Positions 9,270 to 59,052 of a DNA stretch of 64,000 nt are shown here, one piece after another (within the stretch, counting starts at the first letter, position 1; the number at the start of each line of letters is the position of its first letter). The notes beneath the pieces were generated by a model. It saw only the letters and a list, made by a program, of their open reading frames with translations, was not told where the DNA came from and did not search any database. The DNA is from Thiobacillus sp. (lineage in GTDB: Bacteria > Pseudomonadota > Gammaproteobacteria > Burkholderiales > Thiobacillaceae), in contig JAUXRY010000042.1 of the NCBI GenBank assembly GCA_030679915.1, forward strand, positions 62,001-126,000, written 5' to 3'. The position numbers and the translations under genes are program-made.

Positions 9270-9286
9270 CGGGATAAAATGACGTG

Positions 9287-12101: not shown

Positions 12102-12364
12102 GCGAAGAAGAAACCCTGCTGAAATTCCCCACCGATTTTCCCGTCAAGATCATGGGTGAACGGCGCGATGATTTTGCGCAAACCATGGTGGAACTGGTGC
12201 AACGCCATGCGCCGGATTTTAAGGCGGAAACCATTGAATTGCGCGAATCGAGCGGGGGAAACTACCTGTCGGTAACCTGCGTCATACGCGCCACCTCTCG
12301 CTCCCAACTTGATGCGTTGTATCGAGAAATCACGGCCCACCCCTGGGTGAAGATGGCACTTTGA
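12098..12364 (+). CDS. ybeD: DUF493 (YbeD-family) protein
   Basis: An 88-residue protein of the DUF493/YbeD family, a small ferredoxin-like alpha/beta fold that in proteobacteria is regularly encoded just upstream of lipB. The conserved features are [12 protein letters not shown] near the start and the closing segment [13 protein letters not shown]. The molecular function is unproven; an allosteric regulatory role has been suggested for the fold. The start is set by an ATGA overlap with the aminotransferase; a longer in-frame reading from 11960 would lie inside that gene. Confidence 0.92.
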
Positions 12365-12380
12365 GCGCCGTGACACCCGC

Positions 12381-13016: not shown

Positions 13017-13065
13017 CTAAATTAGTCAGATATTAGTATTCTTGCAACTTCTAATGGAGTAATTC

Positions 13066-29973: not shown

Positions 29974-31194
29974 ATGGACGGACTGCTGTTTCTGGCCCAT
30001 CGCATTCCGTTTCCGCCCAATAAAGGCGACAAGATTCGCTCGTTTCATTTGTTGCGTCATCTCAGTACCCGTTACGCCATTCACCTGGGTGCTTTTGTGG
30101 ATGACCCTGACGATTGGCAATATCAGGACGCGTTGAAACCCTATTGTGCGTCGATCAAACTGCTGCCGCTGAACCCACGTCGGGCCAAACTGGGCAGTCT
30201 GCGCGGTTTGTTTTCAGGTGAGGCCCTCACCCTGCCGTATTACCGGAACACGGAACTCCAGCATTGGGCGGCCGGCTTGGCTGATACCGGAAAAGTGTCG
30301 CGCGGCTTGGCCTTTTCTTCGGCGATGGCGCAGTTCATGCCAGACACGCTCGAGCGGCGCGTGCTGGATATGGTTGATGTGGATTCTGACAAATGGACGC
30401 AATATGCGCCAACTCAACGCTGGCCGATTGCCTGGGTATATCGCCGCGAGGGGCAGAAGCTGGCCGAATGGGAGGGTAAGGTGGCACAGGATTTCGATGC
30501 CACTCTCCTGGTGTCGCAGGCCGAAGCGGCCCTGCTGCAACAACGTGCACCGCATGCACAACATAAAATCAGTGCCTTCGAGAACGGCGTGGATGCCGCG
30601 TACTTTTCACCCGACCGTGATTACCCCAACCCCTATGCTCAAACGGTTCAAAGCATTGTGTTCACCGGGGCGATGGATTACTGGCCGAATGTCGATGCGG
30701 TTACCTGGTTTGCCGAGCATATCTTTCCGCGGGTTCGTGAAGTGATTCCCGGTGCGCAGTTTACCATTGTGGGCAGCCGACCTAGCGAAGCCGTGCTGGC
30801 GCTGGCATCTCATCCCGGCGTCGTTGTCACCGGCGGTGTTCCCGATGTGCGGCCTTACCTGGCCCATGCGGCCTGTGCAGTCGCGCCGCTGCGAATCGCA
30901 CGTGGGGTACAAAACAAAGTGCTGGAGGCCATGGCGATGGCGCGTCCGGTTATTGCCAGTGCCCAGGCTGCGGAAGGCCTGCGCGCTGAGGCGGGGCGTG
31001 ACTTCACGCTGGCCCAGGGTGAGGCCGAGTTCGCTCGGGCCGTCGTAGACAAATTACAGCACCCGGAATCTGCAGCTTTAGCCCGTGAAAGCGTGTTGGC
31101 GCATTACGACTGGGCCCGTAATCTGGCTGTGATTGACACTTTATTTGAAAAACCGCTGGTTCCCTCTTCTGTATCGGAGATACACATCCAATGA
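29974..31194 (+). CDS. XrtA-system glycosyltransferase, TIGR03087 type
   Basis: A 406-residue GT-B enzyme (GT4-like) of the subfamily found almost only in XrtA loci. It opens with FLAHRIPFPPNKGDKIR, typical of the subfamily, and its C-terminal nucleotide-sugar domain shows FTGAMDYWPN, FTIVGSRPS and APLRIARGVQNKVLEAMAM. It should add one sugar to the lipid-linked repeat unit at the cytoplasmic face. It overlaps xrtA as ATGA. Confidence 0.93.
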   Translation: MDGLLFLAHRIPFPPNKGDKIRSFHLLRHLSTRYAIHLGAFVDDPDDWQYQDALKPYCASIKLLPLNPRRAKLGSLRGLFSGEALTLPYYRNTELQHWAAGLADTGKVSRGLAFSSAMAQFMPDTLERRVLDMVDVDSDKWTQYAPTQRWPIAWVYRREGQKLAEWEGKVAQDFDATLLVSQAEAALLQQRAPHAQHKISAFENGVDAAYFSPDRDYPNPYAQTVQSIVFTGAMDYWPNVDAVTWFAEHIFPRVREVIPGAQFTIVGSRPSEAVLALASHPGVVVTGGVPDVRPYLAHAACAVAPLRIARGVQNKVLEAMAMARPVIASAQAAEGLRAEAGRDFTLAQGEAEFARAVVDKLQHPESAALARESVLAHYDWARNLAVIDTLFEKPLVPSSVSEIHIQ

Positions 31195-32738
31195 GTGACT
31201 TGATCAAACACCAGTTCGCCACACTAAAAGGAAGATGGCTATATTCGGGCGCGTTGACCCTCGGTGCACTGTCGATTCTGTTTGTCCTGTTCTGGTCGAC
31301 GTTTTACTCGATGGCCGAAGTTTGGGAGCGTTCTGAAACGTTCGCTCATGGCTATCTCATCTTTCCGATCACAATCTGGTTGATCTGGCGGAAACGGCAT
31401 ACGCTGGCAAATATTCCGCCGCATCCCGATTTGCGTGGCCTGGTGTTGATGGGACTGGCGGGTGCTGGCTGGTTGTTGGCGAATGCAGGCAGCGTCAATG
31501 TAATCGAACAGTACGCCTTCATCACCTTGCTAATCGCAGCCGTGTGGACACTGTTGGGTTTGCCCTTTTTTCGCGCGGTATTCTTTCCCCTCATGTTCCT
31601 GTTTTTTGCGGTTCCCGTCGGTGAATTTCTGATTGAGCCCTTGATGGGGGTGACCGCAGATTTCACGGTGGCACTGTTACAGGCCACGGGTATTCCGGTA
31701 TTTCGGGAAGGTACCTTTTTCAGCATTCCGAGTGGCGACTGGTCGGTGGTGGAGGGATGCTCCGGTCTGCGTTATCTGATTGCTTCGGTGACACTCGGCG
31801 TTTTGTACGCTTATCTCACCTATCGCTCGTGGAAGCGGCGCCTGTTGTTTTCCATCGCGGCCATTATTGTGCCCATCTTGGCGAACAGTGGGCGTGCCTA
31901 CATGATCGTGATGATCGCGCATCTGTCCGACATGAAGCTGGCATTGGGTATTGATCATTACATCTACGGCTGGGTGTTTTTTGGATTGGTCATGATGTTG
32001 CTGTTCTGGATAGGCGGATTCTGGCGGGAGGATGACTTGCCTGAGCCGGCGGATTCGGTTTCAACCCTGCAAGCCAGTGATATCGGAGCGCGTAGGCCGA
32101 TTTTGCCAATGGCTGTTGGTGCTCTGCTGATTGCAGGGCTGTGGCCAGCTTACGCAGCGTGGTTGAATGCACGTCCATTACCCTATATGCCAGTATTACA
32201 GGTAGAAACGCAGGGCGGATGGCAGCCCGGTACGATCTTTACGACCTGGACACCCCATTGGGTAGGCGCGGATCGCCAGCTACGTCGCGCGTATGTGCAG
32301 GCTGGGCGCCAAGTGATGCTGGATCTTAATTACTACGGCACGCAGCGACAGGATGCCGAGCTCATCAACTCGCAGAACTTCATGATCAAGCAGAAGGACC
32401 CGGTATGGTCGAATATCGGCGAAACCGTGATTTCGGTGCAAATAGCAGGGCAAGCGCAGCAAGTGCGTCAGGCCAAGATGCGCAGCATCAACGGACAGCG
32501 TTTGCTGGTGTGGCAGTGGAACCGGGTCAATCAGCATTTAACCGTCAACGACTACACCGCAAAATTGATACTGGCCATGGATCGGGTTCGATTGGCACGT
32601 GATGATGGCCTGTCGGTATTGATCGCAACCCCATACGATGACGTCGGGATCAAGGTTGCAAGCAATACCCTGGCAACTTTCGCGACAGACATGAAGCCTG
32701 CAATTGGGCGTGCGCTGGATCGGGTAGACGGAAAGTGA
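31191..32738 (+). CDS. xrtA: Exosortase A fused to an EpsI domain
   Basis: Exosortase A is a polytopic transpeptidase-like enzyme that recognises the PEP-CTERM sorting signal on secreted proteins. The 515-residue protein has about eight transmembrane helices in the first 290 residues. The predicted catalytic triad is intact: Cys190 in VEGCSGLRYL, Arg235 in ANSGRAYM and His256 in GIDHYIYGW. After a ninth helix (about 310) a soluble EpsI-type domain (about 330-515) follows, here fused rather than separate as is common in Betaproteobacteria. It lies inside the glycan operon; no PEP-CTERM substrate is visible in the window. Confidence 0.96.
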   Translation: MSDLIKHQFATLKGRWLYSGALTLGALSILFVLFWSTFYSMAEVWERSETFAHGYLIFPITIWLIWRKRHTLANIPPHPDLRGLVLMGLAGAGWLLANAGSVNVIEQYAFITLLIAAVWTLLGLPFFRAVFFPLMFLFFAVPVGEFLIEPLMGVTADFTVALLQATGIPVFREGTFFSIPSGDWSVVEGCSGLRYLIASVTLGVLYAYLTYRSWKRRLLFSIAAIIVPILANSGRAYMIVMIAHLSDMKLALGIDHYIYGWVFFGLVMMLLFWIGGFWREDDLPEPADSVSTLQASDIGARRPILPMAVGALLIAGLWPAYAAWLNARPLPYMPVLQVETQGGWQPGTIFTTWTPHWVGADRQLRRAYVQAGRQVMLDLNYYGTQRQDAELINSQNFMIKQKDPVWSNIGETVISVQIAGQAQQVRQAKMRSINGQRLLVWQWNRVNQHLTVNDYTAKLILAMDRVRLARDDGLSVLIATPYDDVGIKVASNTLATFATDMKPAIGRALDRVDGK

Positions 32739-40514: not shown

Positions 40515-41627
40515 ATGATGAAACCCTCCGCATGGTTTGATGCGTTGCTACCTTACAAGCCTTGGCGCTCGGGGCAGCTACGCTGGATGATGCTGGATCT
40601 GGCCGGAACCGCGCGCCAGCCCGAGCAGGATCCGCGCACGCATTTGCGCGCATCGCTTGAGTGGCTGTGTCGTGCACAGGATGCATGCCCGACGGAACCA
40701 GGTTGTGGGTGCGTGTCTGCGGGCTGGTCATTCGAATCGGGCTGGTTACCGGGCAGCATCGACACCACGGGATGGCTGGTTGAGACTTACCTGCCCGCCG
40801 CCGATTATCTGGTTTGGCCGTTACTTGAAAATCGTGCACGGGCCATGCTCAATGTTTTGCTGGCCCAACCCGATGGGACATCGCTGGGTCGGATACATGG
40901 ATTGATTGCCGGGCATGTCCAACTGGGGCATGCCGATTGTCTGGAACGTGCGGTGCGCAGTGCGCATACCTTGCTCGACGCACCCCTGGTGTCCGTAGTG
41001 CATCTTGCCAAGGTGGCACATACCCTGGCGGCACTGGGCATCCTCGCAGAGGACGCCGTGCTTAGCCAGGCAGCGCAGAAATATCTGGATGCGGTACTCA
41101 CACGGCAAACCCCGTGTGGGTGGTTTGCCGACGGATCAGCCCCCATCGCCACCCCGCTGAGCGTACTGGCTTGCACGCTACGCAGCCTGATTGAACTCGC
41201 CGTGATCCTGGATGATCAGCGTGCACTCCAGTCGGCACACCGTATCGCACATGCCTTGCGTGACAACCTGAGTGGTGACGGCTTGCTGGCGGGTGCCTAT
41301 GACGATGGCTGGATGCCAGCAGCAAACCATGTTTGCATGTCGGGCCTAGCGCAATTGACGACCTGCTGGGTTCGCTTGTCACAATTGGAACCGGGTGCAA
41401 TATGGAACGACGCGATCTGGCGTGCGCTGGCCTGGATCAAGCGCAACCAACGCACCGAGGGCGAAGATCTTGCCACCCGAGACGCCTTGCCCAACACCGT
41501 GCCTATTTGGCGAGGTCCGGGCGCATTCGGTTTTGATTCCATGAATGCCAAATATTTTGCCGATGCCCTGATGATGGATAGGGTGGGCATCACAATACCG
41601 TCTGCTGCACGAAAGAAAAATCAATGA
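40515..41627 (+). CDS. Uncharacterised helical (possibly alpha/alpha-toroid) protein
   Basis: A 370-residue protein without signal peptide or transmembrane segments. The sequence has repeated helical pairs and glycine/tryptophan spots (SAGWSFES, GWFADGS, GAYDDGWMPA, CMSGLAQLTTC) that recall alpha/alpha-toroid proteins such as six-hairpin glycosidases or terpenoid-cyclase folds. I do not recognise a defined family. It lies 2 bases after the CapK-like gene and overlaps the ligase-like gene as ATGA, so it belongs to the operon. A role in glycan trimming or modification is an inference only. Confidence 0.7.
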   Translation: MMKPSAWFDALLPYKPWRSGQLRWMMLDLAGTARQPEQDPRTHLRASLEWLCRAQDACPTEPGCGCVSAGWSFESGWLPGSIDTTGWLVETYLPAADYLVWPLLENRARAMLNVLLAQPDGTSLGRIHGLIAGHVQLGHADCLERAVRSAHTLLDAPLVSVVHLAKVAHTLAALGILAEDAVLSQAAQKYLDAVLTRQTPCGWFADGSAPIATPLSVLACTLRSLIELAVILDDQRALQSAHRIAHALRDNLSGDGLLAGAYDDGWMPAANHVCMSGLAQLTTCWVRLSQLEPGAIWNDAIWRALAWIKRNQRTEGEDLATRDALPNTVPIWRGPGAFGFDSMNAKYFADALMMDRVGITIPSAARKKNQ

Positions 41628-42946
41628 GAGACTTGCTTGTAACCGCTATTGTCTTTGGCATCCTTCCCTTTGTTTTTAAACGTCCATGGGTTGGCATTCT
41701 GCTGTGGTCGTGGCTAGGCTATATGAATCCCCACAAGCAAGCTTGGGGGTTTGCCCAAAATTTTCCATTCGCCCTGGTCGTGGGCATCGTCATCATCGTG
41801 GCATTTTTCTTCTCTCGAGAGAAGAAGGAAATGCTATGGACGCGCGAAACTGTGTTGCTGCTAATGTTTGTGGGCTGGATGTTATTGACAACCTTTTTCG
41901 CTTTTTATTCTGATCCGGCCTGGGAACAATGGGACAAGGTCTGGAAAATTCAGTTGATGGTTTTTCTCACCGTGCTCATCATCAAAGAGCGTCAGCATTT
42001 GCATTGGCTGATATGGGTGATTGCGCTGTCGCTAGGTTATTACGGTGTCAAAGGTGGCATATTCACAATTGCCAATGGCGGGGTGTACCGGGTACAAGGC
42101 CCTGAAAATACCTTTATCGGCGGCAACAACGAAATCGCGTTGGCACTGGTGATGGTTATTCCCCTCATACGCTATCTGCACCTTCAGGCAACGCAGCAAT
42201 GGGTCCGTTTGGGCTTGGCAAGCGCAATGGTGTTGAGCGGCGTGGCCGCAGTCGGCAGTCAGTCTAGAGGCGGCCTCGTTGCCATGCTGGCAATGGGCTT
42301 TTTTCTCTGGACCAAAAGCCGGAACAAGTTGATTACCGGAGTCTATATGGTGCTGGCCGTGGCCATTATCGGAATGGTCATGCCACAAGCCTGGTATGAC
42401 CGCATGAATACGATCCAGAATTATCAGCAGGACGACTCGGCGCTTGGACGGATCAATGCCTGGCACACTGCTTTTAACGTTGCCTCAGACCGAATAACTG
42501 GCGGTGGCTTTGAGACATTCCTGCCCCCTACCTTTCAGCAATATGCTCCGAATCCATTTATGGTGCACGATGTGCATAGCATCTATTTTGAGATCATGGG
42601 AGAGCAGGGGTTTATTGGTTTCGCCATGTTCATGTTGTTGGGCGTGTTTGCCTGGCTGCGGGCCCGACAGATCATCCGTGCCTGCAAAAATGATCCCAGC
42701 CGAAAATGGGCATCGGATATGGCAGCCATGTTGCAGGTGAGTTTGATTGGCTATGCGGCGGGAGGGGCGTTCCTGGGATTGGGCTATTTCGATTTGCCTT
42801 ATCACCTGATGATGCTTATCTTGCTGGCGGCGAAGTTTTCGGGTGTGTTGGACAAAGATTCCCAGAACAGGGCTCTCGGAGGGGAGAAGCGTCTCCCGCA
42901 TCCCTCCAGCAGTCTGGTCAGGAATATTTCCGGACAAAAAAATTGA
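41624..42946 (+). CDS. Exosortase-A-associated O-antigen-ligase/polymerase-like membrane protein
   Basis: A 440-residue polytopic protein with about ten transmembrane helices and a large periplasmic loop (about 250-330) with the family residues DSALGRINAW and HDVHSIYFEIMGEQGF. It matches the exosortase-A-linked putative O-glycosylation ligases (TIGR03097 type), related to WaaL/Wzy. It may polymerise the polysaccharide or attach glycan to proteins sorted by exosortase. Which of the two cannot be decided from sequence. Confidence 0.9.
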   Translation: MRDLLVTAIVFGILPFVFKRPWVGILLWSWLGYMNPHKQAWGFAQNFPFALVVGIVIIVAFFFSREKKEMLWTRETVLLLMFVGWMLLTTFFAFYSDPAWEQWDKVWKIQLMVFLTVLIIKERQHLHWLIWVIALSLGYYGVKGGIFTIANGGVYRVQGPENTFIGGNNEIALALVMVIPLIRYLHLQATQQWVRLGLASAMVLSGVAAVGSQSRGGLVAMLAMGFFLWTKSRNKLITGVYMVLAVAIIGMVMPQAWYDRMNTIQNYQQDDSALGRINAWHTAFNVASDRITGGGFETFLPPTFQQYAPNPFMVHDVHSIYFEIMGEQGFIGFAMFMLLGVFAWLRARQIIRACKNDPSRKWASDMAAMLQVSLIGYAAGGAFLGLGYFDLPYHLMMLILLAAKFSGVLDKDSQNRALGGEKRLPHPSSSLVRNISGQKN

Positions 42947-45871: not shown

Positions 45872-45965
45872 GGTGTGTAGTGTCAGCGTGATGCAGGATA
45901 ATGTCCGTCAATATAAACGAGCGGAGCGATTGACACGAGCTCTGTAGATTGTGTGGTGGTCCACC

Positions 45966-46919
45966 ATGACCCGAAACCAGCAACAAAAGAAGGCAAAACG
46001 TTTGAATGATTTTTTGAACAAGGTTGGAAAAACGCTGGCGTTCCATGCCCGTCAGTTGCAGCGCCGTCTGCGCGGCGTGCAATGGGGCCGATCTCCCCGG
46101 CCCGCTTACCGTCCCATTATCGTAGTGGGCTGTTCGCGTGCGGGCACTACCCTGGTTTATAAAACCCTGTCCGAATCAAAAGAAATAGGCAGTCTGCAAC
46201 GTGAAACGCATGATTACTGGACCGACCTGCACCCCCCTCAGACCAAGAACTGGGATACCCATGCGCTGGATGCTGGAGACGCCAGTGCCGCGGATCGCGA
46301 TACCGTCAGCCGCTATTTCTACAGCTGGACTGGCCAGCATCGCTGGGTCGACAAAAATAACCAGAATGGCCTTTGCATACCCTATCTCGCGTCACTGTTT
46401 CCCGATGCCGTGTTTGTCTATATCAAGCGCAGCGCAGGGGATAACCTCAACTCGCTGATTGAAGGCTGGAGAAAGCCTGACGAATTCGCCACCTGGTCGA
46501 CCAATCTGCCCGCGAAGGTATCAGTTGAAGGTGGAAAGTTGAGTCAATGGTGCTTTTTCCTGGCGGAGGGCTGGCGTGACTATGTGAATGCCTCGGTTGA
46601 GGAGGTCGCTGCATTCCAGTACGTGGCCATCAATCAGGCCATTCTGCAGGCCAAGGCCAGCGTGCCTGCCGGGCAATGGGTTGAAGTGTTTTACGAAGAT
46701 TTTCTGCGCGACCCCGTCGTGACATTTCGTCAGGTGTTCGAAGGGTGTGGGTTGAATTTCGACACCCGCCTGCAAACCCATTGCGCAGGGGTGCTTGATA
46801 TTCCCTATAACGCATTTTCGGAAATCAGACTGGACAAATGGAAGGACGGCCGCAATCGTGAAAAGATTGACCGCGTGCTGCCCAAGGTGGAAGACGTTGC
46901 CAAACGGATGGGATATTGA
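45966..46919 (+). CDS. Sulfotransferase-family protein
   Basis: A 317-residue sulfotransferase-like protein with a basic N-terminus. The PAPS 5'-loop is G55-CSRAGT-T62; the 3'-phosphate segment is K154-RSAGDNLNS-L. A second sulfotransferase (38285) is in the main operon; the two share the fold but little visible sequence. Divergent from the asparagine-synthase homologue by a 94-base gap. The start at 45966 (ATG) is preferred over the GTG at 45951. Its end overlaps the next gene. Confidence 0.85.
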   Translation: MTRNQQQKKAKRLNDFLNKVGKTLAFHARQLQRRLRGVQWGRSPRPAYRPIIVVGCSRAGTTLVYKTLSESKEIGSLQRETHDYWTDLHPPQTKNWDTHALDAGDASAADRDTVSRYFYSWTGQHRWVDKNNQNGLCIPYLASLFPDAVFVYIKRSAGDNLNSLIEGWRKPDEFATWSTNLPAKVSVEGGKLSQWCFFLAEGWRDYVNASVEEVAAFQYVAINQAILQAKASVPAGQWVEVFYEDFLRDPVVTFRQVFEGCGLNFDTRLQTHCAGVLDIPYNAFSEIRLDKWKDGRNREKIDRVLPKVEDVAKRMGY

Positions 46920-49042: not shown

Positions 49043-50188
49043 TTGATCAGATTGTTGGTGCTGACCGAATTGTTTTTGCCCACCAAGGGCGGTACCGCTG
49101 TGTGGGCAGCCGAAGTGTATAAACGGCTTGGGGGCAAAGGAATTCATATTGTTACCGCTGACGTGCCGGGAGCGGAAACGGTCGATGCGACACATCCCAA
49201 TACAATCCACCGGATCAGTCTCAAGCGCGTGGCGTGGCTGCGCCCCGAATCTCTGGCGATGTATGCGCGTTTCTTCTTCAAGTCGTTGTGGCTGGGGGTG
49301 ACGCATCGCTTTGATGCCATTCATGCCTTTCGTGCACTGCCAGAAGGTCTGGTCGCCTGGGCTGTGGCGCGGCTCACTTTCCGGACGGTAGTGATCTACG
49401 CGCATGGTGAGGAACTCACCACTTGGGGGCGTGGGCGAAAATATCAGGTAATGTGTTTTGTCTTGCGACGCGCAGACAGGATTATTGCGAACAGTGAGCA
49501 CACGCGCGATACGTTGCTGGCAATGAATGTTCGCCCCGAACGCATCGGAATCATTTATCCCGGTGTGGATTTGGCTGTTTTCCGGCCAGAACTGGATATC
49601 ACGGGGCTGCGAGAAAGCTACGGCATACATCGCGATGAAAAGCTGGTTTTTTCAGTCGGTCGACTCTCGCGTCGCAAGGGGTTCGATCAGGTGATCTGCG
49701 CTATCGCGGCGTTGCGAGCAGAAAGTCTTCCGCTGCGCTATGTCATCGCGGGCATCGGCGAAGATGCGGATTATCTGGATGATCTGATACGGGAACATAC
49801 GCTGGAGAATGTTGCCCATCGCATTGGGGTCGTTAGCGAGGCCGATTTGCCGCGCTGGCTCAATGCCTGTGACGTGTTTGCCATGCCCAACCGCGATATT
49901 GCGGGTGATAGCGAAGGTTTTGGTATGGTTTTCATTGAGGCGGCTGCGTGTGGCAAGCCGGTTCTGGCAGGGGATGCGGGGGGCACTGGATCGGCAGTTC
50001 TGCACGAAGTGACCGGCCTGCGCGTAAATGGTGAGGATTTGGCGTCAGTGGTGGGTGGCTTGCGGCGCCTGATTGCGGATCACGACTGGGCGTTGCAACT
50101 GGGTCAGTCCGGACTGAAGCGGGTGCGTGAGCGTTTTGCCTGGGAGCAAGTCACACAGGCAACACATGAAATGATGAGAAGGGATTGA
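49043..50188 (+). CDS. GT4 family glycosyltransferase
   Basis: A 381-residue GT-B enzyme. The acceptor domain begins LLVLTELFLPTKGGTAVWA, and the donor domain has FSVGRLSRRKGFDQVI and the EX7E segment SEGFGMVFIEAAACGKPV. The start is TTG at 49043, supported by an AAAGGA ribosome binding site (49029-49034) 8 bases upstream. It follows the GT2 gene after 4 bases. Confidence 0.9.
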   Translation: MIRLLVLTELFLPTKGGTAVWAAEVYKRLGGKGIHIVTADVPGAETVDATHPNTIHRISLKRVAWLRPESLAMYARFFFKSLWLGVTHRFDAIHAFRALPEGLVAWAVARLTFRTVVIYAHGEELTTWGRGRKYQVMCFVLRRADRIIANSEHTRDTLLAMNVRPERIGIIYPGVDLAVFRPELDITGLRESYGIHRDEKLVFSVGRLSRRKGFDQVICAIAALRAESLPLRYVIAGIGEDADYLDDLIREHTLENVAHRIGVVSEADLPRWLNACDVFAMPNRDIAGDSEGFGMVFIEAAACGKPVLAGDAGGTGSAVLHEVTGLRVNGEDLASVVGGLRRLIADHDWALQLGQSGLKRVRERFAWEQVTQATHEMMRRD

Positions 50189-50988: not shown

Positions 50989-52083
50989 TCAGGCGCGGAC
51001 GTAACTCAATAGCAATTTTTCGAATTCCCTGACGGGTTGGGTCGTGAATTGCTGTTCTACCAGAGTGCGTCCCGCTTGCCCCATACGCGCGCGTAGGGAA
51101 GGGTCAGCGATCAAGGTGGCAACCCGGGTGGCCAGCATGTCAATATCGCATGGCTCAACCAGATAGCCATTCACCCCCTCTTCGATGACTTCCGGGATGC
51201 CGCCGACCCGGGTGGCCACAACGGGTTTGTGGCATGCACCGGCCTCCAGATTGATCAGTCCCAACGGCTCCTGCCAGCGTGAAGGCACCACCACTATGTC
51301 GGCGGTGTGATAAATGTTTTCCACTTCTCGCACATAACCGATGTAGCGGATGCGCGTATCGCCTCCCGATAAATTTTCGAGATCAGCCGGGCTATAACTT
51401 CCCGGATATTGAGCCGGGTCGCGGCATTCTCCTGCGATCAAGAAATGCGCGTGGGGTGCATCAATGGCACGCGCCATGGCGATAAAGTCTGATACGCCCT
51501 TGATCTCGCGAATTTGTCCGAGGAATGCAATCACCACATCCGATTCTGCCAGGCCCAGTTCCCCACGGAGGCTGTGGCCGTTGTCAAAGCGCGCAAGATT
51601 GACCGGGTTATAGATGACCGGCTTGGCTAGTCTCGGTGGGCCGGACTGCTCGGCGGTGTAGCGAGATACCGCAATTGCTGCGCGGCACCATTTCATTGCC
51701 GGTGCGGGTTCGTGGTTAATGACATGGTAATGCGCGAGGATGGGAATGCCACTGAGCTTGGCGGCAAGCAGTTCCGCCGGCCGCCAGAAATTGGCCCCGT
51801 TGACGTGAATAACCTCAACCTTTTCCCGGCGAAAAAATCGCCACGCCTTCCAGAATGCGCGCAGATAGGCGAGAGCCGATCCCGGTTCGGTAAAGGGTGA
51901 CCACACTTCGTAGCGGAATCCGCGGGCATCGAGTTCGGGCTCGATTGGCCCGTGACACGGCAGGACCAAAATGGGGTCAAGGGCGTTTGTGTCAAGCTGC
52001 CACAGATTCGTGTAGAGCACGCGGCTCGCCCCCCCCCAGTCACCACAGCTGGTAGTAAAAAAACATATTTTGGGTTTATGCAT
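50989..52083 (-). CDS. GT4 family glycosyltransferase with N-terminal homopolymer tracts
   Basis: A 364-residue GT-B glycosyltransferase. Acceptor domain segment DWGGASRVLY and donor-domain FLGQIREIKGV and VPSRWQEPLGLINLEAGA define GT4. The first 22 codons carry a run of seven T and a run of nine G (52037-52029), both prone to slippage. No clear ribosome binding site precedes the ATG. It is the last gene of the long minus-strand operon, 53 bases after the fusion gene. Confidence 0.9.
   Translation of the reverse strand: MHKPKICFFTTSCGDWGGASRVLYTNLWQLDTNALDPILVLPCHGPIEPELDARGFRYEVWSPFTEPGSALAYLRAFWKAWRFFRREKVEVIHVNGANFWRPAELLAAKLSGIPILAHYHVINHEPAPAMKWCRAAIAVSRYTAEQSGPPRLAKPVIYNPVNLARFDNGHSLRGELGLAESDVVIAFLGQIREIKGVSDFIAMARAIDAPHAHFLIAGECRDPAQYPGSYSPADLENLSGGDTRIRYIGYVREVENIYHTADIVVVPSRWQEPLGLINLEAGACHKPVVATRVGGIPEVIEEGVNGYLVEPCDIDMLATRVATLIADPSLRARMGQAGRTLVEQQFTTQPVREFEKLLLSYVRA
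52029..52037 (-). repeat. G9 homopolymer near the start of a glycosyltransferase
   Basis: Nine consecutive C on the plus strand (G on the coding strand) at codons 16-19 of the glycosyltransferase. Long mononucleotide tracts in glycan genes are known contingency loci in other bacteria. Slippage of one base would change the reading frame. Phase variation here is a hypothesis. Confidence 0.4.
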
Positions 52084-52136: not shown

Positions 52137-55100
52137 TCATGAATCAGGTACGGGTTCGCTTAGCCCGATCCAGTTGCGCAATGCGGGCCACAATTCGGCA
52201 GCAATATCGGCATGCTGATCGATCAGGTTTAGCTTGCACGATGGATCGGCTTCGACGTCAAAAAGTTGGAGAAGATAGCCATTTATGAGCGGCTGATAGG
52301 TCAGCTTCCAGTTACCGCGACGAATCATGCGATCCTTGGCCGCCATGATGCGGTCGTTGTATTCGGGCCTGATTCCCAGGGTGCCGGTCGCACTGTTTGG
52401 CACCTCCATCAGTTCCAGCAAGTCGGGGTAGCGCAAGTGTGCTTCGGGCAGGCCGGGAATGTCGGCGATCCAGATTCCGGTTTCGTTGAACGCGTCGAGT
52501 TGCGGACAATCGCCCTCTGCGCTCAGACAGTTCGCAAGCGACACGCCGTCCATACCAGGGACAGCGGGCGCGCCAGCCAACTCGAGCAGCGTAGGTGCCA
52601 AATCGATCGAGCGTACTACCTGATCAACAATGCCTCGTGCGGGTCGGCGCGGGTCGCGGATCACTAGCGGAATTCGCGGGCTGGCTTCGCCAACCGCGGA
52701 GTTTCCTTGCCCCCAGCTGTCGTGTTCGAAAAATTCCATTCCGTGATCAGAGTAGACAACGACTATGGTGTTGTCGGTCAGGCCGCAGGTTTGCAGATGT
52801 GCGAGCATTTTGCCCACTTCGTCATCGAATTCCGCCACACAGCCGTCGTACAGGTCGATGATCTGGTCGAGGTCGAACTCTTCCTTGGGCGCGCCCTGGC
52901 GGCGAATAATTTCGAATGGGTCGGTGAGCCGCGACATCGCAAACTTGGATGGACCCTTATAGCCCGGATCGGCAAAGCGCGTGTACCAGGGCCATTCCGA
53001 AGCAAAGGGCGGATGCGTCGTGGAATAGAATAGGTTAAGAAAAAATGGTTCAGCATTTTCTGCCAGACGTGAAACCAGTCGTCGTGCGCGTTTACCCAAC
53101 GGTTGTGTCAGTGGCACGCCGCCCAGGTAATATAGTTCGGGAAGCAGCAAGCGTCCGAGTCGGTTATGGACAAAAAGGGATAAATACAGGCGTAAATCCT
53201 TGGGCCCCTGGCGGATCAGGTATTTCAGATTCCACTGATCTTGTGGAAAGTCGGTGTAGTCAAAGCCAAACGAATACTTTCCCATGTCCGAACCGCACCA
53301 GTCCGAAATCGCGGCAGTGCGATAGCCGGATTTTTTCAGCAGCGTGGGCAAGGCCTCCACTTTTAACCGCGTATTGTCATCTCCAGTAAAGTTGTCGCGG
53401 ACACCGTGCGTGTGTGGCCAGGTCCCTGTCAACATGGAAATCAAGCTGGGTGCAGTGCGCGCGCAAGGAACATAACAATGGGTGAAGAGCGTGCCTGATG
53501 CTCCCAGTTCGTCAATTCGCGGGGTCAGGGCGCGATGATAGCCCAGCGCGCCCAAGCGGTCCGCACGTAGCGTGTCCGAGCCTATCATCAGGATGTTGGG
53601 TGGCGTGTCGGGTGCGCGGGCTGGAAAATTGCGTGGCGCACGTGGTTGCGGTTGCCACTCCGCCCAAAGGATTGTGCCCGCAACAAACAAGGTAGCACCC
53701 CATAGTGCGATGAGGTCACCAATATGGTTGTCTATAGCCAATTGCCAGGAAGCGGCTGCGAACAACACCCCGATCATCCCCAATCCCAACCAAAGCATGA
53801 TGCGCAGGCGGATGGGGGTGACCCAGTTCCACAAGCCATACAACCGGCTCATGCGGTAATGCATCGAGGCCACCAGCAGGCCTGGGTTCCAATGCAGCTT
53901 GCGGACAAACTGCAGCGAGAAGGCACCGAGGATTCCCACAACGGCCGCAAAGAATGCCAGACCCAGCGTCCACGGTATCCCTAACACCTTACTGAGCATG
54001 AAGGTCAGCAACACCCCTGCGCTACCGGTAAACAACATCAAGGCAAATGCCCAGGCCGTCAGTCGAGCCAGTGCAAACAGGGTATAGCGCTGGTAATGCG
54101 TGAGCACTTCTTCGCGAATGCGCGGCCCGGTTTGCGTAAAACTCCGGAGCGATTTGGCCAGCAGGGCAACCGAACCGATGAAAGCGGCCAACATGGCAGG
54201 GAGCAGGCCGGCCCAATGCCCCCCGCCACTGGCAAACCATGCGACCAGACCACTGGCGGTTGTGAAAAGGGCCAATGCCTCAATGCGCAACATGCCTTGG
54301 TCGGGCGGTAATTGAAGCCGGTTCCTGTGATTCGTACCGGCAGGATCAGACGGATCCAGATCAGCCACGGAGGCAACGCCCATATAGTTGAGTTGCCAGG
54401 TGATATAGGCGGGATTCGAATAGCGGTCCCAGCGACCGCGGAGAAAGCCGTACAGATTGGTTATCCGAACAAACTCCATGACCCCTAGAACACGGATCCG
54501 CATCTGCCAGCTTTTTTCGGCGGTTGCGCTACTCGCCTGTGGCCACAAGTTGCGGTAAAAATGCCATCCGGCCACCACCAATGCTGCACTCAAAAAAGGG
54601 AGAAACCACAGGCTTGCAATCAACGACACGATCAATACGGCATGCACTTTGAGATTGGTCAGATAGCCTTCTGTGCCGATTCCTACGCGTGAATTGCCAC
54701 GCGAAAAGTTGATCCGTTGTCTGGCCAGCGCCTGCCAGGTTTCTCGCGGGCGCCAACGCACGATGGCGTCTCGACAAAATACAAAGCGTAAACCCAGTTG
54801 ACGCATGCGGATGTTAAACAGGGTGTCTTCCGCGGCATACAGCCATTCCGGATAGCCGCCAGCTTGTTCCCAGGCCGCCTTGGTAAAAGCAACCGAACGG
54901 CTAGATGGGTAGTAACGTGCCGTTTCGGTATGGTCACGATTGGGCTGAAAGGTCGCGAGAACCACGGCCTCTTCAAATGGCGTTTGTGTCTCAAAGCGAA
55001 AGTTTCCAGCAACCACATCGGGATGGCAGTCCGATTCAAAACACCGCTCGATATGCGCTAGCCAGTCTGGCTCCACCTGGCATCCCGCATCGGTGACCGC

Positions 55101-55346
55101 AAGGTGGGTGCCTTGCGCGGCAGTGATGCCCAGATTGCGCCCTTCGGCGATATTGCAGGGTTGTGAAATAACACGCAACAGGCCGCGCGAAGCATAGTCT
55201 TCGAGAATTTCAAGGGTGCCGTCATTGCTTTCGCCGTCGACGATCAGAATTTCATCAGGCTTGCGCGTCTGCTCCAGTAACGAGTCCACGAATCCGTGGA
55301 TGGTGCCGGCTTCGTTGCGGACAGTGGCGATGAGCGTGAATTTCAC
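52137..55346 (-). CDS. GT2 glycosyltransferase - membrane - alkaline-phosphatase-superfamily (sulfatase-fold) fusion
   Basis: A 1069-residue protein. Residues about 1-230 are a GT2 domain (TLIATVRNEAGTI, VDGESNDGT, DAGCQVEPDW). About 235-575 hold multiple hydrophobic segments, estimated at six to nine helices. About 582-1065 are a sulfatase-fold (PF00884-like) domain with metal-type residues in ILMIGSDTLRADRLG (D591) and YSDHGM (D867, H868). At the nucleophile site the segment is ARTAPSLISMLTG: Thr631 stands where FGly-sulfatases have Cys/Ser in C/SxPxR, and the Arg is missing. I infer phosphatase- or phosphotransferase-like chemistry, not FGly sulfatase activity. The GTG start at 55346 overlaps the upstream stop as GTGA; a longer ORF from 55436 would run inside that gene. 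No close relative comes to mind as characterised. Confidence 0.85.
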   Translation of the reverse strand: MKFTLIATVRNEAGTIHGFVDSLLEQTRKPDEILIVDGESNDGTLEILEDYASRGLLRVISQPCNIAEGRNLGITAAQGTHLAVTDAGCQVEPDWLAHIERCFESDCHPDVVAGNFRFETQTPFEEAVVLATFQPNRDHTETARYYPSSRSVAFTKAAWEQAGGYPEWLYAAEDTLFNIRMRQLGLRFVFCRDAIVRWRPRETWQALARQRINFSRGNSRVGIGTEGYLTNLKVHAVLIVSLIASLWFLPFLSAALVVAGWHFYRNLWPQASSATAEKSWQMRIRVLGVMEFVRITNLYGFLRGRWDRYSNPAYITWQLNYMGVASVADLDPSDPAGTNHRNRLQLPPDQGMLRIEALALFTTASGLVAWFASGGGHWAGLLPAMLAAFIGSVALLAKSLRSFTQTGPRIREEVLTHYQRYTLFALARLTAWAFALMLFTGSAGVLLTFMLSKVLGIPWTLGLAFFAAVVGILGAFSLQFVRKLHWNPGLLVASMHYRMSRLYGLWNWVTPIRLRIMLWLGLGMIGVLFAAASWQLAIDNHIGDLIALWGATLFVAGTILWAEWQPQPRAPRNFPARAPDTPPNILMIGSDTLRADRLGALGYHRALTPRIDELGASGTLFTHCYVPCARTAPSLISMLTGTWPHTHGVRDNFTGDDNTRLKVEALPTLLKKSGYRTAAISDWCGSDMGKYSFGFDYTDFPQDQWNLKYLIRQGPKDLRLYLSLFVHNRLGRLLLPELYYLGGVPLTQPLGKRARRLVSRLAENAEPFFLNLFYSTTHPPFASEWPWYTRFADPGYKGPSKFAMSRLTDPFEIIRRQGAPKEEFDLDQIIDLYDGCVAEFDDEVGKMLAHLQTCGLTDNTIVVVYSDHGMEFFEHDSWGQGNSAVGEASPRIPLVIRDPRRPARGIVDQVVRSIDLAPTLLELAGAPAVPGMDGVSLANCLSAEGDCPQLDAFNETGIWIADIPGLPEAHLRYPDLLELMEVPNSATGTLGIRPEYNDRIMAAKDRMIRRGNWKLTYQPLINGYLLQLFDVEADPSCKLNLIDQHADIAAELWPALRNWIGLSEPVPDS

Positions 55347-56257
55347 GCGTTTGTGACCCGCTTGGAATTGTTCAGAATGGCCCGCAGCATGTCTTCGTAA
55401 TCTGATGTTGGAATATTGAGGTTGGACTGAATGCACAGCGTGATCTTGTCTGCCGGCAGTGAACGATTATTGAGTACATCCAATCTGATTGTATCGAATG
55501 AAGCACGATCCCACGCAATCAGGTCGAATCCATGGTCGCGTACCGTCAGGTTGTCGGGCTTCAATACTTCGTCAACAAATACACCATAAAGCGTGTACTC
55601 GGAAATATTGAAATCCGCCGCGAGCAATGCCTTCTGCCAGGGCCTGCCCTTGAGTTTCTCGATATGTTTCTGCATCTGGTTCAACCAGTCCGGGTGCCAG
55701 ATGGCTGGGTAGGCCATGTAGGTGGTATCGGTGGGACCTTCAGGCAGTTCAAAAAACTGCCGTGAGTGGGTTATATGGTGCCGGTGTTTTCCGCTCTCGG
55801 ATTCCGGAAGAATGCGAACCAGAACGCGCTTTCCGTCGTGCAAGCCAAGATCTTCTTCAAGCGAAAAGCGGCGATAGAAGAAAATATCCGAATCGAGAAA
55901 AATAATCGGCTCGTTTTCGATCAGGCGGTTGCTGGAAAGCTTGACGATCTGCTGAATGATCCAACCTGGCTTCCCCGCATGCTTGTCTAGGCGCCACACT
56001 TGTCCCGGCGCTATCTTTTTTGTCAGCTTATATAAGTTGTCTGGATAAAATCCGGAGTCGACCAGTTCTTCTTGGCAAATGAGCTCAATCTCTTTTGAGT
56101 GGCCCAAAGCATTTTGAAACGCGCGCAAGTCATGCTTGGGGACGGCAATGATATGACGTGTTGGCGTATCGAGAAATGCCTCAATTGAGCGCCGTAGCCA
56201 GACCACGCGCGCCAGATCACCGATATAGGAAGGTGTGAAGAACGTGCCCGTTGTCAT
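55343..56257 (-). CDS. DUF6492-like protein with GT-A-type DxD motif
   Basis: A 304-residue cytoplasmic protein. The FLDSDIFFYRRF segment (about 122-133) has an Asp-x-Asp motif in a hydrophobic strand, as in GT-A glycosyltransferases, and the N-terminus begins TPSYIGDLARV. It matches my recollection of the DUF6492 family found in polysaccharide loci. The start at 56257 follows an AGGGGG segment 9 bases upstream; ATGs at 56287 and 56302 are alternatives. It is translationally coupled to the fusion gene. A 118-base gap (56258-56375) separates it from the upstream GT2 gene; no clear promoter seen there. Confidence 0.75.
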   Translation of the reverse strand: MTTGTFFTPSYIGDLARVVWLRRSIEAFLDTPTRHIIAVPKHDLRAFQNALGHSKEIELICQEELVDSGFYPDNLYKLTKKIAPGQVWRLDKHAGKPGWIIQQIVKLSSNRLIENEPIIFLDSDIFFYRRFSLEEDLGLHDGKRVLVRILPESESGKHRHHITHSRQFFELPEGPTDTTYMAYPAIWHPDWLNQMQKHIEKLKGRPWQKALLAADFNISEYTLYGVFVDEVLKPDNLTVRDHGFDLIAWDRASFDTIRLDVLNNRSLPADKITLCIQSNLNIPTSDYEDMLRAILNNSKRVTNA

Positions 56258-56375
56258 GCTGTGTTTCCCCCTGATACTCGGTTTCATTATCTTGTGGAGC
56301 AATTCAATCGATTTTGACCGAACCTTTTTTGCATTGGGGCCATTTTGGCTTTTACATCTTGTTCTTCTTGCGGGC

Positions 56376-57296: not shown

Positions 57297-58252
57297 GGCC
57301 GGTCCGGTGTTCTGCTTGATGCTGGAGGTTGATTATTGCCTAGCAACCCCAGCAAAAATTGATGGACGCGCAGAGGGAGCAGCGATGGCAACATATAGAG
57401 CCAGTCCCTGACCCCGCCAAAGCCCGCCTGCATGACACGTCGGAAGATCACGCGTGCCGTCGGGAGGTCACGTTTCCAGTATGCCGCATACCCTTTTTGC
57501 ATGAGTGGTTCATACAGGATTACGCGGCGTGCGTTTCCGAGTTGCGTACCAAATTCAGGGTGCCGATCAAGATAAGCCTGTTGCGCTGCAAGCAGTTGCA
57601 GCGCGGCACGGGCCTGGTTATCTGAAGCCTGGCCTGTGCCGTGGAAGTGATAATACGCAAGGACGTCAGGTACACGAACAATCGGTTGTGTGCCTGCGAT
57701 CTCGAGCCAGAGTGCGTAATCTTCTGCATTCTTCAGGCGCGGATCAAATCCCCCCGCAGACAGGATTGCCTCGCGCCGTGTCAACGCGGCATGAATGGGC
57801 CAACGGCAGCCAGCAAACAAGGTTGTACGTTTATTTGGCGCTTCGTAATCGGGGGGTACGAAAGGCTGGCTCCGGTCACCCGGAAGCCCCACATTTTGCC
57901 AACCGCAATAAGCCAACATTGCGTCAGGATTGAGTTGCAGTGCGGCCACCATTTTGTCCAGGAAGCGTGCATCCCACGTGTCATCCGCATCCAGAAAGGC
58001 CACATAAAGGCCACTTGCTGCGGCAAGCCCGGCGTTGCGTGCTGCACTGACCCCCTGATTGGGCTGGGCGTGGACACGAAGGCGTGGATCGGTTTGTGCC
58101 CGCAGCCATTTGAGCGTGTGGTCAGTGGAGCCGTCATCGATGGCAATCAATTCCCAGTCGCTGAATGTCTGCGCCATGACGCTCCCCACGCTGGACGGCA
58201 AATGCGCTGACGCGTTATGGCAAGGCATGATGATCGTAGCGATCGGCGTCAT
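57293..58252 (-). CDS. GT2 family glycosyltransferase
   Basis: A 319-residue GT-A enzyme. Core motifs: ATIIMPCHNASAHLP, AIDDGSTDHT, SAARNAGL, the DXD-type FLDADDTWD (about 87-95) and NAEDYALWL (about 174-182). It is distinct from the neighbouring GT2 genes, so not a recent duplicate. ATGA overlaps at both ends. Confidence 0.92.
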   Translation of the reverse strand: MTPIATIIMPCHNASAHLPSSVGSVMAQTFSDWELIAIDDGSTDHTLKWLRAQTDPRLRVHAQPNQGVSAARNAGLAAASGLYVAFLDADDTWDARFLDKMVAALQLNPDAMLAYCGWQNVGLPGDRSQPFVPPDYEAPNKRTTLFAGCRWPIHAALTRREAILSAGGFDPRLKNAEDYALWLEIAGTQPIVRVPDVLAYYHFHGTGQASDNQARAALQLLAAQQAYLDRHPEFGTQLGNARRVILYEPLMQKGYAAYWKRDLPTARVIFRRVMQAGFGGVRDWLYMLPSLLPLRVHQFLLGLLGNNQPPASSRTPDRP

Positions 58253-59052
58253 GTCGTTCGATCTTTCCGGAAGCGCCGCAAGCCGCTACCGGCAATATCC
58301 TGCCAGCGCACATCATGGCTGCCGAGATAGAGTTTTCGCGCCAGCATGCTGGCCGTATCGGTATTGAAAACGGTTAATCGCCGTACCTGAAAGGGGTCGT
58401 TGTCGCGCAGCGCCCATCCTGTTTGGGTGGTGCAGGCCGAGGTATAGCCGGCTTGTTTTACCGCCATGGCGCAGCGTGTATCCGATGTGCCATAGGGGTA
58501 GGCAAAACTGTTGACTGCGTTGCCGAGAATGGCTTCCAGTGCCGCTTTGGAATCCGTGAGTTCTTGCATCATGCGCGTATCGTCGACGTCGGTCAGACGG
58601 ACGTGATTGACAGTATGGGAACCGATTTCCATACCCGCCGCCTGCATTTCGCATAGCTCACTCGCGTTGAGCATCCGTCCTGCGGGTCGGCCATCATCTG
58701 GCCATTGAGGTGTCTTGCCGACCGCACTGGATACGATATACCAGGTGGCGCGCATTCCGCGCAGCTGCAATTCGGAACAGGCATCGATGTTGTCGACATA
58801 TCCGTCGTCAAAGCTGATGAAAGCTGTCCGTTCTGGCCAGGGCTGGGTGCGGGTCAGCAGTTCGCTGATTGTCGGTGTAACGTAGCCCTCGGCAGCCAGG
58901 ACATCCAGCTGCTCGGCAAACTGGTTTTTTGAAACGGCCCATGGCCAGTCAGGGTTTCTGCGGCCAGGTTGTACCGAGTGATACATGAGCCCCACAGGCC
59001 CATGGGGTTGTGCGCTATGGCGCAGAATGAACCGGGTCAAGCGCGCCGGCAT
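58249..59052 (-). CDS. Polysaccharide deacetylase (NodB fold, classical motifs)
   Basis: A 267-residue protein with the classical NodB motifs: SFDDGYVDN (about 79-87, catalytic and metal Asp), GSHTVNH (about 143-149, two metal His) and FAYPYGT. Among the deacetylase-like proteins in this window it is the most canonical. No clear signal peptide. It shares one base with the upstream glycosyltransferase gene and overlaps the downstream GT2 gene as ATGA. Confidence 0.92.
   Translation of the reverse strand: MPARLTRFILRHSAQPHGPVGLMYHSVQPGRRNPDWPWAVSKNQFAEQLDVLAAEGYVTPTISELLTRTQPWPERTAFISFDDGYVDNIDACSELQLRGMRATWYIVSSAVGKTPQWPDDGRPAGRMLNASELCEMQAAGMEIGSHTVNHVRLTDVDDTRMMQELTDSKAALEAILGNAVNSFAYPYGTSDTRCAMAVKQAGYTSACTTQTGWALRDNDPFQVRRLTVFNTDTASMLARKLYLGSHDVRWQDIAGSGLRRFRKDRTT

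Follow-up and report, generated by a model that had tools for sequence, protein, structure and literature searches.

A sulfatase-fold membrane module with exchanged glycosyltransferase partners in XrtA-type exopolysaccharide clusters hints at a putative two-step assembly tool

Described systems and architecture of the fusion protein

Hydrolysing sulfatases and phosphonate monoester hydrolases (PMHs) use FGly, and in sulfatases two adjacent Asp residues early in the domain bind metal. In LtaS, EptA and YejM (LapC) the nucleophile is Thr, with Asp/Glu, Asp and His as metal ligands, and the catalytic domain is positioned outside the inner membrane (PMC7576196). Two genes annotated as 'sulfatase (wbbL)', one in Rubrivivax gelatinosus psc1 (RGS1_10427) and one in Thauera MZ1T (Tmz1t_3253), appear as list entries in the accessible portions of two reports on exopolysaccharide (EPS) clusters, and the Rubrivivax table does not mark RGS1_10427 as hit by a transposon (PMC3684757, PMC4784049). 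The same portions tie EPS clusters of the XrtA kind to flocculation and aggregation: in Thauera, flocculation was restored by a deacetylase of the cluster, and autoaggregation was tied to psc1 genes. Judged from names and neighbours, both genes look like the gene described here. Their clusters, as far as these excerpts show them, hold PEP-CTERM deacetylase, FemAB and AsnB genes like the window (the whole 64,000-nucleotide stretch of Thiobacillus sp. DNA that was analysed), and GT2, hypothetical and polysaccharide deacetylase genes lie a few genes away, in an order somewhat different from that of the window. Among the loci compared below, two from Thauera carry the module, L130 as a fusion and L151 as a stand-alone form. 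A functional study of the fusion was not found in the open-access literature (PMC), although other papers may exist; the initial annotation likewise knew of no characterised protein of this architecture.

The features of the locus are listed in Table 1. The interval assigned to the gene beforehand, 52137-55346, holds, and its strand, which had not been given, is minus: translation of this strand yields 1069 residues with no internal stop, while the plus-strand frame over the same interval contains many stops. The GTG start is backed by homology from residue 1-2 onward, and the overlap of the DUF6492 stop with this start suggests that the two genes may be translationally coupled. Pfam searches placed PF00535 at residues 5-141 (E 5.8e-21, 75.6 bits against a cut-off of 23.3) and PF00884 at residues 583-926 (E 1.2e-47, 163.1 bits against 25). 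In the AlphaFold2 model, membrane helices span residues 350-372, 376-401, 419-455, 461-486, 511-538 and 542-563, and the GT2 domain ends in a hydrophobic hairpin of its own (helices 225-244 and 250-274, also seen by hydropathy). The glycosyltransferase, the membrane region and the sulfatase-fold domain are thus found in one protein, as had been proposed. Hereafter, "module" denotes the six membrane helices plus the sulfatase-fold (PF00884) domain without GT2; GT2 partners were sorted into three types, A, B and C, the window protein being of type A.

Table 1. Coordinates of the fusion gene, its parts and the neighbouring genes in the window
Feature	Position	Strand	Evidence or remark
Fusion gene, 1069 aa	52137..55346	-	GTG start; stop codon 52137-52139
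GT2 domain, type A, residues 1-337	54336..55346	-	PF00535, AlphaFold2, hydropathy; exchanged in relatives
Six membrane helices, residues 350-563	53658..54299	-	AlphaFold2, hydropathy, charge
Sulfatase/alkaline-phosphatase-superfamily domain, residues 583-1062	52161..53600	-	PF00884 and structural match
Asp591, predicted metal ligand	53574..53576	-	alignment
Thr631, predicted nucleophile in ARTAPSL	53454..53456	-	invariant in A2/A1; opposite 6hhm Cys
His778 (THPPF), opposite sulfatase active-site His	53013..53015	-	alignment
Asp867-His868, predicted metal ligands	52743..52748	-	alignment
GTGA, upstream DUF6492 stop overlapping fusion start	55343..55346	-	
DUF6492 gene (PF20102), upstream of fusion	55343..56302	-	Pfam
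Group-1 glycosyltransferase-kind gene (PF00534), downstream of fusion	50989..52083	-	Pfam
GT4, group-1 glycosyltransferase gene tracking module	49043..50188	+	phi 0.84, 117 genomes
Sulfotransferase-family gene (PF13469) tracking module	45951..46919	+	phi 0.83
Putative O-glycosylation ligase, exosortase A system-associated	41624..42946	+	TIGR03097 588.9 bits, cut-off 188.1
Exosortase A (XrtA), ~20 kb from fusion	31191..32738	+	TIGR03109 356.5 bits, cut-off 208

A joining of two separate genes by a sequencing error had been considered as a refutation. Full-length fusions with type-A GT2 also occur in genomes G077, G080 and G090, and 64 of the 80 related loci kept from the genome-contig scan have the module fused to a GT2, which rules such an error out.

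For the GT2 domains, the nearest NCBIfam glycosyltransferase models were EPS_EpsD for type A (63.2 bits, cut-off 370) and EPS_HpsE for type B (98.6, cut-off 300). Among solved GT2 structures type A had weak matches, the best being 5hea (E 3.6e-7), and the type-B domain of L105 scored 51.3 bits with PF00535. The fusion GT2 differs from the EpsD and HpsE enzymes of EPS clusters in scoring below every listed equivalog cut-off and in carrying the module.

Active site of the sulfatase-fold domain

The best structural match listed for residues 581-1062 was 6hr5 (Z 38.1), with 350 residues aligned at 2.3 A. The fold is shared with S1 sulfatases and PMHs (6hr5, 4upl, 4uph, 2w8s) over 350-406 residues at Z 35-38 and 24-28% identity, the PMHs among these neighbours including 4uph (Z 35.9) and 2w8s (Z 35.1). 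The best 50 structural matches listed were sulfatases and PMHs, with neither LtaS nor EptA among them, an absence that does not exclude a kinship with either. At the family level, the closest NCBIfam models stayed far under cut-off (arylsulfatase 122.9/481 bits, choline-sulfatase 104.4/433 bits), as did the curated families LtaS (24.4/970), LapC (23.1/825) and CptA (PRK10649, 15.3/404). With S1 sulfatases and PMHs the protein has in common the first metal Asp, the Asp-His pair and the active-site His. It differs from them in having Thr631 in place of Cys/Ser, Leu635 in place of Arg and Thr592 in place of the second Asp, and in carrying membrane helices and a GT2 on the same chain; basic residues of the sulfatase site are presumably replaced as well. 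LtaS, EptA and YejM share with it the Thr nucleophile, similar metal ligands and helices ahead of the catalytic domain, but lack an attached GT2.

Conservation was followed in two alignments, A2 (60 rows: the window protein and 59 of the 80 loci) and A1 (22 rows). The motif ARTAPSL (residues 629-635) places Thr631 at the FGly position and Leu635 at the position of the Arg, and a phmmer alignment to 6hhm sets the Cys of its CAPSR opposite Thr631. Asp591, Thr631, His778, Asp867 and His868 are invariant in all 60 rows of A2, and Thr631 in all 22 of A1; we take Asp591, Asp867 and His868 to be metal ligands and His778 to be the active-site His. Leu635 is found in 59 rows of A2, the remaining row having Met, and Thr592 in 60/60 rows of A2 and 21/22 of A1. 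Scanning the whole sequence for [CS]-x-[PA]-x-R gave no match in the 1069 residues, so that an FGly motif hidden nearby or elsewhere in the protein is ruled out. These data agree with the initial annotation in all three of its points on the site, namely loss of the FGly motif with Leu replacing Arg, Thr631 as the candidate nucleophile, and retention of the metal-binding Asp and His residues.

Four cysteines (624, 628, 836 and 1037) are all present in 60/60 rows of A2 and 19/22 of A1, and all four are missing together from the same three A1 rows (L048, L049, L050). Such joint loss is expected of disulfides and is therefore a hint of an oxidising compartment, counter to a cytoplasmic location; a Cys4 metal site would give the same pattern.

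Exchange of the GT2 partner within XrtA-type clusters

The module is the constant part of the protein, and its GT2 partner has been exchanged repeatedly among three types. The 64 fused loci comprise 48 with type B, 12 with type C and 4 with type A. On the module tree, in which 26 of 77 forks are weak, at least 15 changes among the four states (A, B, C or none) are needed, and a single clade of type-A fusions was rejected (AU test, p-AU 0.000359). Among loci with a stand-alone module, 10 of the 11 uncut by a contig end in one set and 5/12 further ones in the other have a GT gene of one of the three types nearby as a gene of its own, against 0/65 fused loci; Fisher values on this comparison of split with fused loci disregard genome relatedness. 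Nine separate type-B genes have 51-59% identity to three fused type-B domains. The earlier idea of joint action between the sulfatase-fold domain and its fused GT is backed by the fusions and by this split-gene pattern. That relatives keep the membrane and sulfatase half and swap the GT half hints at a two-step assembly tool of putative activity, and a constant module with an exchanged partner shows which two assembly steps belong together.

The module gene belongs to XrtA/PEP-CTERM-type EPS clusters. In the window, TIGR03027, 03007, 03016, 03006, 03019, 03109, 03108 and 03097 all scored above cut-off. Over 117 genomes, 60 have both module and XrtA, 5 the module only, 18 XrtA only and 34 neither, and the 5 and 18 genomes having one without the other rule out a strict tie. 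The two lie on different contigs in 25 of the 60 genomes having both; in the other 35 they share a contig, and there the module is 16-44 kb from XrtA in every case. The sulfotransferase is present in 59 of 65 module genomes and absent from 48 of 52 others; this association, like the other phi and Fisher values over the 117 genomes, disregards relatedness. Six module genomes, including G011 and G019 (98-99% complete), have no match at 1e-40, which excludes a strict tie here too. Because the GT4 gene tracks the module equally well, the link of the sulfotransferase is to the cluster.

Predicted topology and possible mechanism

The initial annotation had put the sulfatase-fold domain in the periplasm. 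AlphaFold2 models of both a type-A and a type-B protein have six membrane helices, and hydropathy gives the same number for 63 of the 64 fused sequences. The GT and the sulfatase-fold domain are predicted to share one membrane side with the long loops rich in Arg and Lys; in the window protein this side carries 19 K+R against 1 on the other. The helix number and the charge bias together predict that both the GT2 and the sulfatase-fold domain are cytoplasmic and disfavour the periplasmic placement. As controls, EptA and LapC were called correctly, with five helices and the catalytic domain outside, at narrow K+R margins of 10:7 and 12:9; the fusion protein, with six helices and its domain predicted inside, differs from both. 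When the hydropathy threshold was set to its strictest value (1.5), the window protein lost helix 1, and the charges still put the sulfatase-fold domain inside, with the N-terminus outside. Stand-alone forms bear on the same point. Of the 22 rows listed from 25 such loci, 17, with unsure start codons, lack a segment where helix 1 would be, and their N-terminus would then have to lie outside. The N-terminal charges of these 22 rows give weak support, with L048 counter to the trend; they are affected by uncertain start codons and by a helix caller that split or merged some segments. In L105 the sulfatase-fold domain is followed on the same chain by a CDP-glycerol-transferase-like domain (PF04464, E 6.5e-13); domains of that kind work in the cytoplasm. 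Homologues of this extra domain occur at 2/80 loci, and in L137 a gene 55% identical to it adjoins downstream.

We favour, at a probability of about 0.4, a bifunctional glycan-assembly enzyme of the XrtA/PEP-CTERM-type EPS cluster, in which a cytoplasm-facing Thr transferase decorates the glycan of its GT partner. The fused or neighbouring GT2 would add a sugar to a lipid-linked glycan at the inner membrane face. The sulfatase-fold domain, aided by a divalent metal (Asp591, Asp867, His868), would form a covalent intermediate at Thr631, and the module would pass the group captured there to the sugar newly added by GT2; this group would most probably be a substituent linked through phosphate, with a phosphodiester as its donor. 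The GT partner may dictate the acceptor sugar, and in this proposal lineages change the GT and keep the module for that reason. Catalysis itself, transfer over hydrolysis, phosphate over sulfate, the lipid-linked acceptor and its choice by the GT are what we infer. It is possible, if doubtful, that the protein is an inside-facing counterpart of LtaS and EptA, that is, a membrane-bound alkaline-phosphatase-superfamily transferase that decorates a glycan during its assembly on the lipid carrier and acts in one polypeptide with a plug-in GT, which lineages would exchange according to their glycan.

The same Thr nucleophile and metal ligand set, being similar to those of LtaS, EptA and YejM (PMC7576196), would also suit a transferase with the GT inside and the sulfatase-fold domain adding a phospho-group in the periplasm, as in EptA and LtaS. 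The co-lost cysteines, if disulfides, and the frequent lack of helix 1 in stand-alone forms fit such an outward arrangement. We nevertheless consider it unlikely in view of the six helices in both models and nearly all fused sequences, the 19:1 charge bias and the CDP-glycerol-transferase-like domain of L105. A hydrolytic role, in which the enzyme would trim or edit an ester of phosphate or sulfate on a lipid-linked intermediate for quality control or release of a protecting group, is rather improbable: the best structural neighbours of the domain do hydrolyse, and the Thr-bearing YejM is reported to be a Mg-dependent phosphatase (PMC7576196), but FGly is replaced by Thr in 60/60 rows.

Little likelihood is given to a role in sulfate handling, with the domain moving or removing glycan sulfate placed by the neighbouring PAPS-type sulfotransferase. 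The S1 fold, the co-occurrence of the sulfotransferase gene (phi 0.83, kinship ignored) and its position between the separate GT and module in L145 speak for it; the GT4 gene tracks the module as well (phi 0.84), a sulfotransferase match at 1e-40 is missing from six module genomes, and the protein has no FGly. Equally hard to credit is a catalytically idle domain that serves the GT as a scaffold or as a membrane anchor binding glycan. It would accord with the constant coupling to a GT and with the replacement of the second Asp, the Arg and presumably the basic residues of the sulfatase site, yet a scaffold would need none of the Thr, His and metal ligands that are invariant in 60/60 rows.

New in the present analysis are the constant module with swapped GT2, the split-gene pattern, the predicted cytoplasmic domains and the proximity to XrtA. 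If the topology is true, the favoured cytoplasm-facing transferase would break the expectation, derived from LtaS, EptA and YejM, that Thr-type membrane members act outside the inner membrane. When other PF00884 proteins of the order (30 loci and the own-genome paralogue L003) were surveyed for their nucleophiles by regular expression, both CSPTR-type and ETARA-type proteins were found, the latter presumably EptA-like; the survey missed the motif in many rows and is too crude for frequencies.

The fusion gene, its fold and its active site

The GTG start of the fusion gene and the stop codon of the DUF6492 gene upstream overlap in GTGA, and the open frame of the fusion gene joins a GT2 domain to a module of six membrane helices and a sulfatase-fold domain. 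The fusion is real, which we regard as practically certain. Three kinds of GT2, here types A, B and C, are found fused to the module, and the window protein is of type A.

Features of the window and co-occurrence with the module, given as genomes with both, module only, partner only and neither among 117 genomes
Feature	Position	Strand	Basis	Both/module only/partner only/neither	phi
Fusion gene, 1069 codons	52137-55346	minus	translation		
PF00535	residues 5-141 of fusion protein		Pfam		
PF00884	residues 583-926 of fusion protein		Pfam		
XrtA				60/5/18/34	0.61
Sulfotransferase	45951-46919			59/6/4/48	0.83
GT4	49043-50188			62/3/6/46	0.84
Deacetylase	58249-59052			33/32/0/52	0.56
Second AsnB-like gene (PF00733)	44045-45871	minus			
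398-aa protein	46916-48112				

The window protein was modelled with AlphaFold2 on alignment A2, whose 60 rows are the window protein and 59 relatives selected by hand from the 80 loci kept from the scan. In the model (mean pLDDT 87.4, pTM 0.75), the N-terminal part is alpha/beta and is followed by a pair of hydrophobic helices (225-274), by six long helices (350-563) and, from 584, by a second alpha/beta domain. The same six helices, at 315-528, were seen in a second AlphaFold2 model, that of the type-B relative L077 (47 rows; pLDDT 83.8, pTM 0.76), in which the helices that take the position of the type-A hairpin lack its hydrophobicity (highest mean over 19 residues 0.38, versus 2.24 in the window protein). 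By structure comparison, the sulfatase-fold domain is closest to S1 sulfatases and phosphonate monoester hydrolases (6hr5, Z 38.1, rmsd 2.3 over 350; 4uph, Z 35.9, rmsd 3.2 over 393). For the GT part, solved structures were compared by sequence only, which gave 11 weak GT matches, the best being 5hea (E 3.6e-7).

A formylglycine sulfatase was ruled out because the defining C/S-x-P/A-x-R motif was absent from the whole fusion protein in a motif scan. In the phmmer alignment with 6hhm, the catalytic Cys lies opposite Thr631 and the motif Arg opposite Leu635. Asp591, Thr592, Arg630, Thr631, Asp682, His778, Asp867, His868, His875 and Gln880 are identical in 60/60 rows of A2, and Leu635 in 59/60. 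In the wider alignment A1 (22 rows), Asp591, Thr631, Leu635, His778, Asp867, His868 and Gln880 are invariant, while Thr592 is kept in 21 rows and His875 in 18. The Thr with its ligands resembles that of LtaS, EptA and YejM as described in PMC7576196. The sulfatase-fold domain is predicted to be catalytically active, which we consider likely. Transfer to a glycan is the putative reaction, slightly favoured over hydrolysis, and the chances that the putative transferred group is phosphate-linked are even.

Cys 624, 628, 836 and 1037 are present in 19/22 rows of A1, all four being gone from the same three rows; they might pair as two disulfides or bind a metal as a Cys4 site.

Pairing and exchange of the glycosyltransferase

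Matches at E 1e-30 or better were found in 65 of the 117 genomes of the family, and 19 of 399 genomes sampled from the order matched the module profile at 1e-80. Two peptide patterns were used to scan genome contigs for relatives, and the best 80 of 155 were kept; their records bear the titles Thiobacillus, Hydrogenophilales, Nitrotoga, Sulfuricella, Sulfuriferula, Thauera, Aromatoleum and Marichromatium or are proteobacterial bins. Among these best 80 of 155, the fused GT2 is of type B in 48, type C in 12 and type A in 4; 16 loci have no GT in frame, five of them cut by the contig end (L075, L082, L117, L118, L126). The modules in the records titled Sulfuriferula multivorans Bin2_2 (L075) and Rhizobium sp. 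B91 (L101) nest among Thiobacillus modules (97% identity to the window; end branch 0.016), and that of a Sulfuriferula strain (L144) is distant, unlike L075; both bins are probably misnamed.

At none of the 65 fused loci (the window plus 64) was a GT gene of type A, B or C found outside the fusion at a profile score >250; the DNA covered reached no further than 10 kb to either side, frequently less, and spanned 64 kb at the window. Among the 16 loci that lack a GT in frame, 10 have such a gene nearby, or 10 of 11 once the five cut loci are dropped (stand-alone versus fused loci, Fisher p 1.2e-11, a value that ignores relatedness); at the sole miss, L150, the contig begins about 1.6 kb upstream. 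Type B accounts for eight of these ten genes; with that of L045 they make nine separate type-B genes, which show 51-59% identity to three fused type-B domains. The remaining two, at L149 and L151, belong to type A; they share 66-67% identity with the window GT and lie some 4.8 kb downstream of the module.

A further 15 stand-alone loci were collected within the family (cut loci L046, L072 and L073 excluded), and 7 of them had a separate GT gene. When L039, L043 and L070 were taken as repeats of L150, L145 and L147, whose contigs are equally long, 12 new loci remained, 5 of them with such a gene (L038, L041, L042, L044, L045). None scoring >250 was found at L040, L047, L048, L049, L050, L069 and L071; L049 and L071 are near a contig end, and directly upstream of the L047 module lies a more weakly matching relative of type A, with 39% identity across 225 residues. 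From 10/11 versus 5/12, the pairing is therefore strong in loci close to the window and less so in divergent ones. A functional pairing of GT and module is very likely.

BLAST gave 41-42% identity between one type-C domain and three type-B domains, and no significant match of type A to type B or C. In the rows listed, types A, B and C all pass into the module at one common point, around residue 338-345 of the window protein. A tree of the sulfatase-fold domain was built by a quick method (80 rows, 75 with a state; 77 inner branches, 28 starred and 26 weak). On it no fewer than 15 changes are required among four states (GT type A, B or C, defined beforehand, or module alone), compared with an average of 26.1 after label shuffling; the minimum imposed by the starred branches is 9 changes for B, 7 for C and 2 for A. 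A single clade of the five type-A rows, a test picked after inspection of the tree, was rejected (p-AU 0.000359, lnL difference 82.4). These results indicate that the GT is the exchangeable part of the fusion.

Orientation in the membrane

The window protein has six hydrophobic segments, with long Arg/Lys-rich loops alternating with short ones. At hydropathy thresholds of 0.9-1.3, 19 K+R fall on the GT/sulfatase-fold side versus 1 on the other; at 1.5 helix 1 is lost, and the charges still place the sulfatase-fold domain inside. Over 50 fused rows, mean K+R is 3.5, 4.0, 6.0 and 3.8 in the GT-side loops and 0.8, 0.2 and 1.2 on the other side, and six segments were counted in 63/64 fused rows (seven in one). 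E. coli EptA and LapC, run through the same script as controls, came out with five segments and the catalytic domain outside (margins 10:7 and 12:9), in agreement with the periplasmic domains described for them in PMC7576196.

At L105 (Candidatus Nitrotoga sp. 1052, 8942-13309), the frame runs 425 residues past the sulfatase-fold domain into PF04464 (48.8 bits, cut-off 22.1), giving a four-part fusion of GT2, membrane part, sulfatase-fold domain and PF04464. PF04464-type enzymes use cytoplasmic CDP-polyols. The longer fusion may be an assembly accident, because it is seen in this locus only; a PF04464 gene 55% identical to the extra domain lies just downstream of the fusion at L137 (7793-9145). 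Two observations count against the cytoplasmic side, namely the joint loss of the four cysteines from the same 3/22 rows and the lack of helix 1 in 17/22 stand-alone rows. On balance, both domains are predicted to lie on the inner side, which seems probable. The whole proposed chain, a Thr631 transferase facing the cytoplasm and decorating the glycan extended by its GT partner, is given a probability of about 0.42, because the steps depend on one another in part and because the core of the chain, a Thr-based, GT-paired, inward-facing transferase, would hold even if the group were not phosphate-linked.

Gene neighbourhood

The signature gene set of XrtA (exosortase A)/PEP-CTERM EPS clusters is present in the window. 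Of the 60 genomes that have both the module and XrtA (over its cut-off), 35 carry the two on a single contig, where their match starts are separated by 16.2-44.4 kb (median 21.9 kb), and 25 carry them on separate contigs of draft assemblies. The phi values of 0.83-0.84 versus 0.61 show that the module tracks the sub-cluster with the sulfotransferase and GT4 better than XrtA itself. The gene order in L145 is type-B GT, sulfotransferase, GT2, module. For Rubrivivax and Thauera, PMC3684757 and PMC4784049 describe clusters tied to aggregation or flocculation in which a 'sulfatase (wbbL)' is listed close to GT2 genes and to a deacetylase gene; going by name and neighbours, it may correspond to the module.

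Beside the sulfotransferase gene, the 398-aa protein, with a hydrophobic N-terminus and no Pfam or NCBIfam match at 1e-5, is found in 35/48 type-B loci. The XrtA amidotransferase model aligns with the AsnB-like gene no earlier than model position 101 and, at 293 of 817 bits, stays far under its cut-off; the glutaminase end of this gene looks degenerate. Sulfotransferase homologues carry one in-frame stop in six genomes (G059, G069, G078, G080, G086, G090), with three different stop codons and a second copy without a stop in G090; perhaps this gene is subject to recurrent loss.
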